The notes under the pieces: model-generated | Told to the model about the DNA's origin: nothing | Databases searched by the model: none | What the model saw: only the letters and a program-made list of their open reading frames with translations | In this document: piece by piece, positions 37,292 through 42,023 of the stretch | How the letters are laid out: every line of letters starts with the position of its first letter | How positions within the stretch are numbered: the stretch's first letter is position 1 | Translations under genes and position numbers: made by a program | Assembly: GCA_019348195.1 (NCBI GenBank) | Contig: JAHWJX010000013.1 | Coordinates: forward strand, 1 to 48,447 | Source of the DNA: Pseudomonadota bacterium | GTDB lineage: Bacteria; Pseudomonadota; Alphaproteobacteria; Caulobacterales; Caulobacteraceae | Length of the DNA: 48,447 nucleotides | Direction: 5' to 3'

Positions 37292-38454
37292 AGGCGGTCG
37301 CAGCAGACGGCGGCGAAGCGGTCGAGGTCCTCGGCGTCGTGATACAGTCCCAGGCCTACCCGCAGCACGTCCGCGCGGACGTCGGTGATCACCCCGGCCT
37401 CAGCCAAGGCGGCCTGCCATGCGGGTGCCTTGGGGTGCCGCAGGGCGAGGAAGCGCGCATTGGGCCGGTCGGGGCGGGGCGGGTTCAGCAGCTGGGCCTG
37501 GCGCAGGAGACCCGCGCGCCCGGTCGCGACGTGCTGAAGCAGGCGCGCCTGCAAGCCGTCCACCTGGGCCGAAACGGCGGCGGTGCTCAGGCCTTCGCGC
37601 TGGAGCAGGTCGAAAACGGCGTTCAGGCGGTACAAGCCGCTGGGGTCGAAGGTGGCGCCCATGAAGCGGAAAGCGTCGGCCGTGTACTGGACCCCGCCGG
37701 GCGGGCCGGACAGCTCGCCGAACTCAGCGTACCAGCCGGTGACCTCCGGGCGCGGCCCGAAGCCGGGCGGGGCGTGAAGGAAGGCGGCCCCCTCGCCCGC
37801 CATGGCGTATTTATAACCGCCCGCGAGGTAGAAGGCCCGGTCGGCGATGGCGGACAGGTCCGTCGGGAGGGCCATAAAGCCGTGGTAGCCGTCGATGGCG
37901 AGCCACGGGCCTTCGGGGCGGGCCAGGTCGGCCAGGCCCTGGATCTCGTCGAACACTCGACCCGCGCCGAAGAAGACCTGGCTCACGAAGATCAGGTCGT
38001 GACCGCCCCGCTGCGCCGCGGCGCTGAACCGCTGGGGGAAGCTCTCCCAAGGCTCGGTGGGAACGGTCTCCAGGACGATGCGGCCGGACTCGGCCCAGCG
38101 AGCCGCCTGGCGTCGGAAACTGTGGAACTCGCCGTCGCTGGACAAGACCCGCGCGGGGCGTCGATCCAGGCCCGAGACCACCGACAGCAGATGCTGGTGG
38201 GTGTTGGGGGCGAAAACAATCGTGGACGGGTCCGGCAGCTTCAGCTCGCGCGCCACGCCCGCCTGGGCGCGCGGCCAGACCTCGCCCATGACACGGTCCC
38301 ACTTGCCGTCGAGCCGGGCGGCGGCGTCATCCCAGGCGGCGAGTTGGGCGTCGCGGCTCACGTCCGGCCAGGGGTGGTGGCTGTGGGCGGCCATATGCAG
38401 CCGGTCGGGGTGCTCGCCGATCGCGCGGGTGAACAGGCGTTTCCAGCCGGTCAC
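37288..38454 (-). CDS. class V aminotransferase, kynureninase-like
   Basis: A 388-residue PLP enzyme of the class V fold. WLAIDGYHGFMALPTDLS contains the cofactor aspartate (Asp188) and YLAGGYKYAMAGEGAAFLHA the Schiff-base lysine (Lys215). N-terminal HMAAHSHHPWPDVSRDAQLA and the tail VITDVRADVLRVGLGLYHDA (ending in DLDRFA) match kynureninase-type enzymes. The sequence diverges from standard KynU, but its start overlaps the stop of tryptophan 2,3-dioxygenase, so hydrolysis of kynurenine to anthranilate and alanine is the likely role. No formamidase gene (kynB) is adjacent. Confidence 0.8.
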   Translation of the reverse strand: MTGWKRLFTRAIGEHPDRLHMAAHSHHPWPDVSRDAQLAAWDDAAARLDGKWDRVMGEVWPRAQAGVARELKLPDPSTIVFAPNTHQHLLSVVSGLDRRPARVLSSDGEFHSFRRQAARWAESGRIVLETVPTEPWESFPQRFSAAAQRGGHDLIFVSQVFFGAGRVFDEIQGLADLARPEGPWLAIDGYHGFMALPTDLSAIADRAFYLAGGYKYAMAGEGAAFLHAPPGFGPRPEVTGWYAEFGELSGPPGGVQYTADAFRFMGATFDPSGLYRLNAVFDLLQREGLSTAAVSAQVDGLQARLLQHVATGRAGLLRQAQLLNPPRPDRPNARFLALRHPKAPAWQAALAEAGVITDVRADVLRVGLGLYHDAEDLDRFAAVCCDRL

Positions 38455-39242
38455 AAGCGGCTCCGCACCGACCAGAGCTCAGGAAAGCACCGGCGGGCGA
38501 GCGTACTCTGGAGATAGCCCACCCCGTCCGTGCCGCCGGTGCCGCGGCGACGGCCGATGATGCGCTCGACGGTGAGCACATGCTTGTTTCGCCACGTGGT
38601 CAGGGCGTCGTCCAAGTCGACGAGCTTCTCGGCGAGTTCATAAAGCTCCCAACGGCCCGTCGTGTTCGTATAAACTTGCAGCCAGGCCTCCTCGACCGCC
38701 GCGGAGGGTTGGTAGGGCTGGGTGAAGTCGCGGTTCAGCACCGTGTCGGGCAGCGCAAGACCGTGGGCGGCCAGCTGAGCCAGGGCGGCGTCGTAAAGGC
38801 TGGGCGTCGCCAGCGCCGCCTCCAGCGCCTGGCGGGGCGCCCCGCCTTGCGGATGGTAGCGAAGGAAGTGCGGGTCCTTGAGCCCCAGCCTATACTCCAG
38901 CTCGCGGAATTGGGCGGACTGGAAGCCGGAGCTGGACCCCAGAAGGCCACGGAAGCTGAGGTAGTCGGCAGGGGTCAGCGTGCCCAGCACCTCCCAGGAG
39001 TGGGTCATCACCGCCTGGATGCGTGAGACGCGCGACAGCGCCTTCTGTGCCGGCGGCAGGCGGCCTGCGGCGACCTCCGCCTGCGCGTAGGCCACCTCGT
39101 GGATCATCTCCTTGAGCCAGAGCTCCTTGGCCTGGTGGATGACGATGAAGAGCATCTCGTCATGGTGGGTGCTGAGGGGGCGTTGCGCGGCCAGGACCTC
39201 GTCGAGCGCGAGGTAGTCCGTGTAGGTCAAGTCGGAAGCCAT
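38451..39242 (-). CDS. kynA: tryptophan 2,3-dioxygenase
   Basis: A 263-residue heme dioxygenase: DLTYTDYLALDEVLAAQRPL, THHDEMLFIVIHQAKELWLK (substrate-binding Phe/His region), GSSSGFQSAQFRELEYRLGL and DLDDALTTWRNKHVLTVERI (the heme-ligand His of this family) followed by GRRRGTGGTDGVGYLQSTL. It opens the indole ring of L-tryptophan to N-formylkynurenine. Length is normal. It starts 49 bases after the terminator of the small RNA on the same strand; there are no clustered Trp codons in the leader. Confidence 0.96.
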   Translation of the reverse strand: MASDLTYTDYLALDEVLAAQRPLSTHHDEMLFIVIHQAKELWLKEMIHEVAYAQAEVAAGRLPPAQKALSRVSRIQAVMTHSWEVLGTLTPADYLSFRGLLGSSSGFQSAQFRELEYRLGLKDPHFLRYHPQGGAPRQALEAALATPSLYDAALAQLAAHGLALPDTVLNRDFTQPYQPSAAVEEAWLQVYTNTTGRWELYELAEKLVDLDDALTTWRNKHVLTVERIIGRRRGTGGTDGVGYLQSTLARRCFPELWSVRSRL

Positions 39243-39290: not shown

Positions 39291-39322
39291 AAAAAAAAGC
39301 GGCGGGTCCGGGGACCCGCCGC
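39291..39322 (-). terminator. intrinsic terminator of the predicted small RNA
   Basis: GCGGCGGGTCC (39299-39309) and GGACCCGCCGC (39312-39322) form an 11-bp stem. On the minus strand it is followed by eight T (A-run 39291-39298). It lies 49 bases before kynA. Confidence 0.9.
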
Positions 39323-39402
39323 AGCGCATCATCGAGAATAGGGTGCGGAGGCGGCAGGCCTGCGTAGCAGGCCTAGTCGGGGGGGCGTCACCGCCTCCGC
39401 AT
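39291..39402 (-). ncRNA. gsrN: GsrN-type small RNA of the general stress response (predicted)
   Basis: A roughly 105-112 nt transcript on the minus strand is predicted between the PRC-like gene and kynA. It has an EcfG promoter (39433-39407), then a long stem TGCGGAGGCGG / CCGCCTCCGCA (39401-39391 with 39354-39344). That stem encloses a C-rich single-stranded run (GACGCCCCCCCGAC in RNA sense) and an inner 8-bp hairpin AGGCCTGC / GCAGGCCT. A perfect intrinsic terminator with eight U follows. Caulobacter GsrN is an about 107-nt EcfG (sigma-T)-dependent RNA with an exposed C-rich loop that pairs with katG mRNA. Promoter class, size, loop and terminator all agree; I could not compare sequences directly. 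Confidence 0.75.
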
Positions 39403-39406
39403 CGTG

Positions 39407-39433
39407 AAAACTCGCTTCCCGCGATGGGGTTCC
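39407..39433 (-). promoter_or_regulatory. EcfG-type promoter of the small RNA
   Basis: On the minus strand GGAAC (39433-39429), 17 bases, then GTTTT (39411-39407). This is the EcfG -35/-10 pattern (GGAAC-N16-17-[C]GTT), with A instead of C before GTT, as tolerated at nepR here. The expected start point, about 39400-39402, coincides with the 5' end of the long stem. Confidence 0.75.
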
Positions 39434-39466: not shown

Positions 39467-39814
39467 TCAGGGGCGAACCTGGGGAAGCAGATTGAACTCC
39501 GCCCTGCGAAGCGGAAGCACCCAGCCGGACCCGTCGGGGCGCAGGCTGGTGATCGGCACGGCGCGGGATTGGGCGCGCACGCCCGTGAGGCCTCGCGTAC
39601 GAACCACCACCTGGACCGGCTGGCCGGCGCTGTCGCGGGTGACTGATTCAATGCGGCCCAGCACCTCGCCGTTGGCGCCGCGCACCGGAGCGCCGATGCC
39701 GGGCGCCCTCTGTTCGAGCGCGGGAGCAGGCGCACGGGCCTGCGCCGCCACGGCGGACACGGGCGCGAACGCGGGCAGGCTGAGAGCCATGATGACGAGA
39801 GCTGGGCGGAACAT
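39467..39814 (-). CDS. secreted PRC-barrel-like protein, predicted stress regulon member
   Basis: A 115-residue protein if started at ATG 39814, for which AAGGA lies at proper distance; an ATG at 39820 would add two residues. Signal peptide: FRPALVIMALSLPAFAPVSA, with cleavage after AVAA. The mature part GAPVRGANGEVLGRIESVTR, DSAGQPVQVVVRTRGLTGV, RAVPITSLRPDGSGWVLPLR reads like a small PRC-barrel domain. Function is unknown. It is transcribed away from the phyR locus from one half of a symmetric EcfG promoter. Confidence 0.75.
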   Translation of the reverse strand: MFRPALVIMALSLPAFAPVSAVAAQARAPAPALEQRAPGIGAPVRGANGEVLGRIESVTRDSAGQPVQVVVRTRGLTGVRAQSRAVPITSLRPDGSGWVLPLRRAEFNLLPQVRP

Positions 39815-39867
39815 GCGCATGTCCTTGGTGAGCCGGTGATGTCGGGAGGTCCCAGGCCGATGCAAGC

Positions 39868-39895
39868 GGAACGGCGCGCAAGGACCGAGCGTTCC
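39868..39895. promoter_or_regulatory. symmetric bidirectional EcfG promoter
   Basis: GGAACG (39868-39873), 16 bases, CGTTCC (39890-39895). Read on the plus strand this is GGAAC-N17-CGTT facing the small membrane protein (ATG 39924). Read on the minus strand it is again GGAAC-N17-CGTT facing the PRC-like gene (ATG 39814). The -35 of each promoter overlaps the -10 of the other, so both genes share one DNA segment. Confidence 0.8.
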
Positions 39896-39923
39896 GTCGG
39901 CGAGATCAGGCCAGGACCCTTCA

Positions 39924-40169
39924 ATGAGCAACATCCCCAGCGATCAACCGCCCGGGCCGCGCGTTTCGGAAACCCGCGCCCGCGCGGGGTTCCGCGACAA
40001 GCCCGTGCTCTGGGTCCTGATCGCCTCGCTCGCGCTGGCGGTGATCTTCGTCATGGGCGCCATGCTCTGGCGGCCGGAGAAGCAGGAAAGCTTGGACGTC
40101 GACGCGGGCCGTGACCGCCGGGACGCGGAGCTGTTCAACGAAACCCCCGTGGCTCCCAAGGGAGACTGA
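39924..40169 (+). CDS. small one-helix membrane protein, predicted stress regulon member
   Basis: An 81-residue protein. The N-terminal 25 residues are polar (SNIPSDQPPGPRVSETRARA), followed by one transmembrane helix (VLWVLIASLALAVIFVMGAM, about 28-47) and a charged C-terminus (RPEKQESLDVDAGRDRRDAE). No family is recognised. It starts 29 bases after the -10 half of the symmetric EcfG promoter, so it should be induced with the general stress response. It is convergent with phyR. Confidence 0.75.
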   Translation: MSNIPSDQPPGPRVSETRARAGFRDKPVLWVLIASLALAVIFVMGAMLWRPEKQESLDVDAGRDRRDAELFNETPVAPKGD

Positions 40170-40222: not shown

Positions 40223-41020
40223 TCAGGCCGCCTTGGCGCTCCGGGCGGGATGGAAGAACAGCGCCTGGCCGATGGCCGCCTTCACTGTTTCCGGCTGGAA
40301 GGGCTTGGTGATTAGGAAGGTGGGCTCCGGCCGCTCGCCGGTGAGCAGGCGCTCGGGGAATGCGGTGATGAAGATCACAGGCACGTCCAACTGGGCCAGG
40401 ATGTCCTTGACGGCGTCGACGCCGGAGGAGCCGTCGGCGAGCTGGATGTCGGCCAGGACCAGTCCCGGCTGGCGCCGGGCCACAGCCTCGGCCGCCTCGG
40501 TCCGCGTGGCGGCGATGTCCAGCACCCGATGCCCCAGTTCACGGACCAGGGCCTCGATGTCTGCGGCGATCACCGGCTCGTCCTCGATGATCAGGACGTC
40601 GGTGGCCAGTTCGGACTCGATCTCGGCCTGGGCTTCGGCGATGAGTTGCTCGACCTCATCGATGCGGGCCGACAGGATCTGCGCGGCTTCGTTGGGGGTG
40701 AAGCCTTCAAGCGCGGTCAGCAGAAACGCCTGGCGCGAACGGGGCGCGATGCGCATCAGCCGCCCGCCGGCGTCGGAAGCATCCAGCGTCTCCTGGCGAC
40801 CGTTCTCCAGCTGAGCTCCGGTGGAGCACCAGATGGTGTGAAACACGTGGTACAAGGCCACGCGAGGCGTGAGGTGGGCCTCGAGAACCCGGTCCCCGGC
40901 CGCCAGAGCTTCAAGGGCCACGCGGACATAGCGGTCGCCGGTGGATTGATCTCCGGTCAAGGCCCGGGCGTAGCGCCGCACATAGGGGAGGTGCGGCGCC
41001 AGTCGTTCAAGCAGACCCAA
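40223..41020 (-). CDS. phyR: PhyR, anti-anti-sigma response regulator
   Basis: A 265-residue PhyR. The N-terminal sigma-like domain (about 1-135) has LPYVRRYARALTGDQSTGDR and the region-4-like segment SRQAFLLTALEGFTPNEAAQ, which mimic EcfG and bind NepR. The C-terminal receiver (about 141-258) has IIEDEPVIAADIEAL, the phosphoacceptor Asp191 in VLADIQLADGSSG, FITAFPERLLTGERPEPTFL and Lys239 in ITKPF. On phosphorylation PhyR sequesters NepR and frees EcfG. It diverges from nepR-ecfG across a 160-base region with EcfG promoters in both directions. Confidence 0.97.
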   Translation of the reverse strand: MGLLERLAPHLPYVRRYARALTGDQSTGDRYVRVALEALAAGDRVLEAHLTPRVALYHVFHTIWCSTGAQLENGRQETLDASDAGGRLMRIAPRSRQAFLLTALEGFTPNEAAQILSARIDEVEQLIAEAQAEIESELATDVLIIEDEPVIAADIEALVRELGHRVLDIAATRTEAAEAVARRQPGLVLADIQLADGSSGVDAVKDILAQLDVPVIFITAFPERLLTGERPEPTFLITKPFQPETVKAAIGQALFFHPARSAKAA

Positions 41021-41093: not shown

Positions 41094-41120
41094 AAAACGT
41101 GCGATCCTGGGAACGGTTCC
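41094..41120 (-). promoter_or_regulatory. EcfG promoter of phyR
   Basis: On the minus strand GGAAC (41120-41116), 16 bases, CGTTTT (41099-41094): a full match to the EcfG consensus, 74 bases before the phyR start. Confidence 0.85.
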
Positions 41121-41135
41121 CGAGTTGCGATGTTT
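41110..41135 (+). promoter_or_regulatory. EcfG promoter of nepR-ecfG
   Basis: GGAAC (41110-41114), 17 bases, GTTT (41132-41135), preceded by T instead of C. It lies about 46 bases before the nepR start and shares the palindrome GGAACGGTTCC (41110-41120) with the phyR promoter, so the two -35 elements are back to back. Confidence 0.75.
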
Positions 41136-41180
41136 ATGCGTGTCGGGCTTGTAACATTTGCACCAGCCCAGGTGAGGCCT

Positions 41181-41432
41181 TTGAGCGACGATCATGACGA
41201 ATCCGGGCGCGCGACCCCACCCACCCACGGCGATCCCGGCGTGAACCTCTCGGTTGGCGAGCCCGCCCGCGCCACCCCCCCACGCGACGTTCCGCTGGAC
41301 GAAGCGCGGTTGCGCCAGCAGGCCATCGGCGTCAAGCTTCGCCAAATGTTCGACGAGGTGGTCAGCGAGCCTGTTCCTGACGACTTCCTCGCTATATTAC
41401 GGCGAGCGGATGAGCGCCGCGCTGGGAAGTGA
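41181..41432 (+). CDS. nepR: anti-sigma factor NepR
   Basis: An 83-residue NepR if started at TTG 41181, chosen because it lies downstream of the predicted transcription start and follows AGGTGAGG; upstream codons (from 41130) would overlap the -10. The conserved NepR core is at the C-terminus: RQQAIGVKLRQMFDEVVSEP and VPDDFLAILRRAD. The N-terminal half is disordered. NepR binds EcfG and keeps it inactive until phosphorylated PhyR competes. The stop is adjacent to the ecfG start. Confidence 0.92.
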   Translation: MSDDHDESGRATPPTHGDPGVNLSVGEPARATPPRDVPLDEARLRQQAIGVKLRQMFDEVVSEPVPDDFLAILRRADERRAGK

Positions 41433-42023
41433 ATGCGATCTTATGACCTGGACGCGGCTGACGAGGCCGCCTTCAAGCGCGATCTCGTCGGTCTGATACC
41501 GCACCTGCGCGCTTTCGCGCGTACTCTGGCGGGGGACGCCGCGGCGGCGGACGATCTCGCGCAGGATGCGATGATGAAAGCGTGGGACGCCCGGAGCTCG
41601 TTCCAGCCGGGGACGAACATGAAGGCCTGGACCTTCATGATTCTGCGCAATCAGTTCTACTCCGAAAAGCGTCGCTCATGGCGGTCGACGCAGCTCGACC
41701 AGGAAGCCGCGGAGCGGACCCTGGTGGCCACGGACGACCCCTCTTCGCCCATCGCCCTGGACGAACTTCGTCAGGCGCTCGGCGCCTTGCCCGACGAGCA
41801 GCGCGAGGCCTTGATCCTGGTGGGGGCGGGCGGGTTCGCCTACGAAGAGGCGGCCGAAATCTGCCGGTGCGCCGTGGGCACTGTAAAGAGCCGGGTCAGC
41901 CGGGCGCGCCGGGCGCTGCACGGCATTCTGGAGTCGGGCGGATACATCCGCGACGGCTCGCCCGCCGACGAGGCCATGAGCAGCATCCTTGCCGATGCGG
42001 AGCGCCTAAGCGGCGCTCGGTGA
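41433..42023 (+). CDS. ecfG: ECF sigma factor EcfG (SigT-like)
   Basis: A 196-residue ECF sigma factor of the EcfG group, starting right after the nepR stop. Region 2: HLRAFARTLAGDAAAADDLA, QDAMMKAWDARSSFQPGTNM, KAWTFMILRNQFYSEKRRSW. Region 4: LPDEQREALILVGAGGFAYE, EAAEICRCAVGTVKSRVSRA. It directs RNA polymerase to GGAAC-N16/17-CGTT promoters, several of which are visible in this window. Autoregulation is expected from the promoter upstream of nepR. Confidence 0.96.
   Translation: MRSYDLDAADEAAFKRDLVGLIPHLRAFARTLAGDAAAADDLAQDAMMKAWDARSSFQPGTNMKAWTFMILRNQFYSEKRRSWRSTQLDQEAAERTLVATDDPSSPIALDELRQALGALPDEQREALILVGAGGFAYEEAAEICRCAVGTVKSRVSRARRALHGILESGGYIRDGSPADEAMSSILADAERLSGAR

Follow-up and report, generated by a model that had tools for sequence, protein, structure and literature searches.

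A gsrN homologue beside the phyR-nepR-ecfG genes of a Caulobacteraceae bacterium

The window, that is, the whole 48,447-nucleotide stretch of DNA that we analysed, almost certainly carries at positions 39400 to 39291 of its minus strand a Caulobacteraceae gsrN gene, predicted to be driven by EcfG and encoding an RNA that would pair with mRNA leaders through a C-rich loop. The anatomy of this gene, its family membership, its conservation and its co-occurrence with PhyR are directly supported. The identification as GsrN is supported by homology to the Rfam family RF01529, by the match of that family to the numbering and the katG site of GsrN, by conservation of the promoter, the start and the C-rich loop, by covariation of the stems, and by the co-occurrence of the RNA with phyR, with which it is also syntenic. 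This kind of RNA is already known, since the family is in Rfam and was predicted for Caulobacteraceae in 2018; the copy in the window is new, and adds a well-supported gsrN in a further genus of Caulobacteraceae.

The locus and the architecture of the RNA

The gene map confirms that the small RNA lies on the minus strand between a PRC-like gene (39467-39934, minus strand; PRC-barrel score just under the cut-off) and kynA (38451-39242, minus strand). The sigma-EcfG (sigma-T) promoter that had been proposed for it, GGAAC-N17-GTTT, is found at 39433-39408 on the same strand, and is assigned from the motif and from the conservation of its -35 and -10 positions upstream of homologues. This motif occurs three times in the window compared to 0.29 expected, and none of 100 shuffles reached three. 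The remaining two sites are a divergent pair between phyR and nepR, where the two EcfG promoters overlap within 41095-41135. Probably nepR begins downstream of its longest-ORF start (41130), since the latter overlaps a promoter. In the promoter of the small RNA, GTTT is followed by 7 nt and then by the start, G39400, in line with the expected distance of about 6-8 bases.

The small RNA is co-located in the window with the PhyR-NepR-EcfG system. The gene for PhyR, the anti-anti-sigma response regulator that exerts upstream control of EcfG, lies at 40223-41020 on the minus strand (PF22029, PF22233, NF006623); nepR, encoding the anti-sigma factor, lies at 41130-41432 on the plus strand (NF051865, PF18557; start as given in the ORF list); and ecfG (sigma-T), the expected driver of the small RNA, lies at 41433-42023 on the plus strand, recognised by its ECF sigma domains and its operon position after nepR. 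The original prediction was right about the stress-gene neighbourhood; it gave a distance of about 1.7 kb from phyR-ecfG, and we measured a gap of ∼0.8 kb between the small RNA and phyR and a distance of 1.6 kb to the phyR start.

The predicted primary transcript extends from G39400 to the end of a U8 run (39291-39400, minus strand), and its length of ∼110 nt agrees with the 105-112 nt that had been estimated. We placed the start by homology (the G is invariant in 54 of 54 loci) and by GsrN numbering. Folding of 39400-39291 (minimum free energy -60.8 kcal/mol) reproduces the closing stem of 11 bp, the C7 run and the inner hairpin of 8 bp that the original prediction described. The closing stem (39400-39390 with 39355-39345) consists of 10 Watson-Crick pairs and a terminal U•G; 15 unpaired nucleotides contain the C7 run (39385-39379, within GACGCCCCCCCGAC), which has a high unpaired probability in the partition function and would serve as the recognition run; and the inner hairpin (39356-39374), AGGCCUGC-UAC-GCAGGCCU, has a 3-nt loop. 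This 5' domain as a whole (39345-39400), recognised by folding and covariation, is the expected stable 5' isoform. The inner hairpin also has covariation in its support. A 22-nt linker precedes the stem of the intrinsic terminator (39291-39322). Here the terminator and its U8 were found as described, with a CCCG loop, but the stem has 10 bp instead of 11.

Family membership, conservation and association with PhyR

In the Rfam search of the window, the small RNA matches RF01529 (CC3552) with 66.7 bits, compared to a curated cut-off of 50, and with an E value of 1.5e-8; the match is full length, covering all 106 model positions from 39398 to 39300. This is the covariance-model comparison by which the original prediction, 'probably GsrN', was to be checked. 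The name CC3552 was absent from the literature we searched, and we therefore drew the link between RF01529 and GsrN from features. GsrN of C. crescentus (CCNA_R0081) has internal ends at C53/T54 and T64, six loop cytosines and a functional insertion at nucleotide 37, and it pairs with the first seven nucleotides of the katG mRNA, GUCGGGG (PMC5869019). When the RF01529 matches of two C. vibrioides-like Caulobacter genomes (G129 and G076) are numbered from the G that lies two bases ahead of the Rfam start (GCGAAGG), they show C53/T54, T64, six C and, in the apical loop, nucleotide 37, and the katG leaders of these genomes carry GTCGGGG at -39. The Caulobacter vibrioides control genome also has RF01529. 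Judged by these sequence features, RF01529 is GsrN, and the full-length match together with the numbering supports the proposed name. A 2018 paper had already reported GsrN homologues in Caulobacter, Brevundimonas and Phenylobacterium (PMC5869019).

The conservation of the C-run and of both stems across relatives, a further expectation of the original prediction, is borne out in Caulobacteraceae. In none of 54 loci does the -10 T vary; the -35 GGAAC is conserved as well if a one-base shift in spacing is allowed, and the GC at the start varies hardly or not at all. The loop, too, is nearly invariant: ACG and five cytosines are identical in all 35 of the 35 aligned sequences, although the window copy reads GACUAGG in the loop 3' of the C-run, unlike the family consensus GACUUGAG. 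The stems covary, with two-sided compensatory change at 18 of 27 base pairs and with 96.9% of cells pairing in the Caulobacteraceae alignment. There are 84 two-sided compensatory cells compared to 24 in shuffles; none of 500 shuffles reached any of five covariation measures, and a slide of one column destroys the signal.

This covariation bears directly on two simpler readings of the locus. Stable hairpins are common in G+C-rich regions such as this one, and the structure might be a chance fold. However, the 109-nt segment 39399-39291 has a fold z of -4.8 (1 of 200 shuffles was equally stable), the E value of the Rfam match is far from chance, and the excess of compensatory cells already refutes this reading, to which we attach practically no probability. 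Alternatively, since every feature is on one strand and 33 nt (39467 to 39433) separate the end of the PRC-like gene from the promoter, the stem-loops might be a terminator or readthrough structure of that upstream gene, with no independent RNA. We consider this very improbable: the RNA has its own EcfG promoter at a fixed distance from the start in relatives, its 5' domain covaries, its Rfam match runs the full length of the model, and homologues occur outside such a gene order.

RF01529 is present in 208 of 299 sampled Caulobacteraceae genomes and was not found in genomes sampled from the order's other families; a blastn search of the plasmid collection gave no match to the small RNA. With the presence of PhyR defined by an E value below 1e-60, PhyR is found in 206 of the 208 GsrN-positive genomes but in only 33 of the 91 GsrN-negative ones (Fisher p 2e-35, kinship ignored). 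RF01529 without PhyR above this threshold is limited to two genomes, G004 (98% complete) and G049 (79%), both of genus g5, and either assembly gaps or a real loss of PhyR with GsrN kept may account for them. The two genes are also close neighbours, gsrN lying at most 2.5 kb from phyR in 99 of 108 genomes, with a median gap of 753 nt. The C. vibrioides-like exceptions have gsrN ∼84 kb from phyR or on another contig, and the gene of C. crescentus is distal to phyR (PMC5869019). The sister genome G017 keeps the whole neighbourhood between the histidine kinase gene at one end and the ORF that follows kynU at the other.

The assumption that genomes negative for RF01529 have no GsrN proved partly false. 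Of the 33 GsrN-negative genomes with PhyR, six from the probably Brevundimonas-like genus g3 (G173, G209, G197, G230, G236 and G266) have an EcfG-driven C-loop RNA, either diverged or truncated, on the downstream side of phyR. The co-occurrence table thus understates GsrN, and its real link with PhyR is closer. In the PhyR-positive, RF01529-negative genomes G027, G028, G018, G106, G021 and G045, the vicinity of phyR contained no RNA of this kind. Within g3, the copies of G197, G230, G236 and G266 (L195, L197, L198, L199) have an EcfG promoter, a conserved CTCATTCTCGATGATGC linker and a terminator, and their loop is AUUCCCCCG instead of GACGCCCCCCCGAC; they fall under RF01529 detection. The RF01529-negative copies of G173 and G209 (L206, L207) keep a normal 5' domain but lack the usual 3' half or the terminator. 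Taken over the family, the RNA and the PhyR system are closely tied, being present together and lost together.

Candidate targets of the C-rich loop

From GsrN of C. crescentus we infer, for the RNA in the window, dependence on sigma-EcfG, processing, Hfq binding and base-pairing. Under stress, PhyR would titrate NepR and so free sigma-EcfG, which would transcribe the ∼110-nt RNA (39400-39291). Its 5' half would fold into the stem that displays the unpaired C7 loop, whereas the 3' half, which would end in the Rho-independent terminator, would probably be cut off to give a stable 5' isoform. By analogy with the cleavage of GsrN at C53/T54, processing is expected near position 51/52 (∼39350/39349), which would leave an isoform of 51-54 nt. 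Hfq would stabilise the full-length RNA, and the C-loop would pair with G-rich stretches of mRNA leaders, whose translation it would change. Both hfq and katG are present in the window's genome.

Pairing of the C-loop with katG had been part of the original prediction, and here the evidence is divided. The katG leader of the window's genome (G000) contains GGGGGCGT, an 8-nt complement of the loop ACGCCCCC, at -42, near the -39 of the proven C. crescentus site. An interaction with katG through GGGGGCGU (8 nt, -42) is thus plausible in this genome from the sequence, but the complement is statistically weak (p 0.085 with mononucleotide shuffles and 0.21 by duplex energy), and the loop complement is absent from the katG leader of the sister genome G017. 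Regulation of katG would not transfer from C. crescentus with confidence. As a conserved target of the family, katG is rejected: a complement of at least 7 nt occurs in 5 of 28 GsrN-positive leaders compared to 2 of 17 GsrN-negative leaders, and several GsrN-positive genera have no katG match at all. Since the loop is nearly invariant while its katG complement is rare, katG does not explain the invariance of the loop. It may be, then, that the RNA belongs to the GsrN family by descent, but that this lineage no longer acts on katG and that the conserved job of the loop lies on other mRNAs. The rarity of the complement, its absence from the sister genome and the genera with no match all point in this direction, whereas the 8-nt complement that G000 itself has, so near the proven position, points the other way; we give this reading somewhat less than an even chance. 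It refines the target step only and is compatible with the identity of the RNA as GsrN. Conservation is seen in the loop but not at its one characterised target site; what, then, holds the loop constant?

The leaders of the stress regulators nepR and phyR are candidate reasons, and we examined them because nepR and sigT have been reported to co-purify with GsrN (PMC5869019). The nepR-ecfG leader has GGGGGCG in Caulobacter, in Phenylobacterium-like genomes and in several other genera, and AGTCGGGG, CAAGTCGG or GGGGCGTC in others, which are different complement registers of the same loop. GGGGGCG or another register of the loop complement, of at least 7 nt, is found in 50 of 75 GsrN-positive nepR leaders compared to 3 of 19 RF01529-negative ones, counts that are phylogenetically non-independent. 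With one nepR leader per genus, the complement was also enriched compared to decoy loops (4 of 1000, and 43 of 1000 in a held-out set); the idea of leader targets itself came from the same kind of data as this test. In the nepR leaders of g7, g22, g5, g19 and others (L151-L180, L214-L253) we noted a conserved AGGGGGCG tract, ∼33-53 nt before the nepR start and in a reading phase that differs between genera. Coding for Arg-Gly-Arg could account for the tract in Phenylobacterium-like leaders and in some of those from Caulobacter; in other genera this difference in phase does not allow it.

The phyR leaders, intended as a negative control, were equally enriched (4 of 1000), because in g3, g4, g8 and g10 the ribosome site of phyR reads GUCGGGG, identical to the proven site of GsrN in katG. 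This 7-mer stands ∼14-18 nt ahead of the phyR start, at the position expected of a Shine-Dalgarno sequence (for example in L258, L259, L275, L160, L161 and L164). GUCGGGG is retained at phyR in G197, G230, G236 and G266, whose loop lost GAC, and this speaks against pairing as its sole reason. G-rich leaders exceed random windows in GsrN-negative genomes as well (p 0.04), which leaves Shine-Dalgarno-like selection as a possible cause. With the control enriched to the same degree, the nepR leader was not accepted as a conserved target. In addition, a published reporter assay in C. crescentus found GsrN without effect on sigma-T output. The window's own nepR and phyR leaders have neither a GGGGGCG-type nor a GUCGGGG site. 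We consider it unlikely, from these sequence comparisons, that the deeply conserved targets of GsrN are the stress-switch mRNAs (nepR-ecfG or phyR leaders) and not katG; the leader matches are a lead and not a demonstration, and the lead excludes the window's own genome. If it were true, GsrN would feed back on the synthesis of PhyR or of NepR/EcfG, at the level of the family and not in the window's copy.

Comparison with known systems

The closest known system is GsrN of C. crescentus (CCNA_R0081; eLife 2018, PMC5869019), an RNA of ∼100 nt from the same bacterial family, which shares with the window copy the EcfG/sigma-T promoter, a 5' C-rich loop within a closing stem and inner hairpin, and a 3' intrinsic terminator. 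The two differ in that the window copy has seven C instead of six, followed by GACUAGG instead of GACUUGAG; in that its gene adjoins phyR whereas the C. crescentus gene is distal; and in that its candidate katG site is GGGGGCGU, pairing with ACGCCCCC, compared to GUCGGGG, pairing with CCCCGAC. The window copy matches the whole 106-position model of RF01529 above the curated cut-off, but its 66.7 bits are lower than the scores of the best copies elsewhere (up to 124.7 in other genera). GsrN-like RNAs have also been proposed in Rhizobiaceae and other Alphaproteobacteria, on the basis of position, expression and structure and not of sequence homology to GsrN (PMC5869019). These RNAs resemble the window copy in their EcfG promoter, their adjacency to the phyR locus and their exposed C-rich loop, whereas RF01529 itself, within the sampled genomes of the order, finds members in Caulobacteraceae only.
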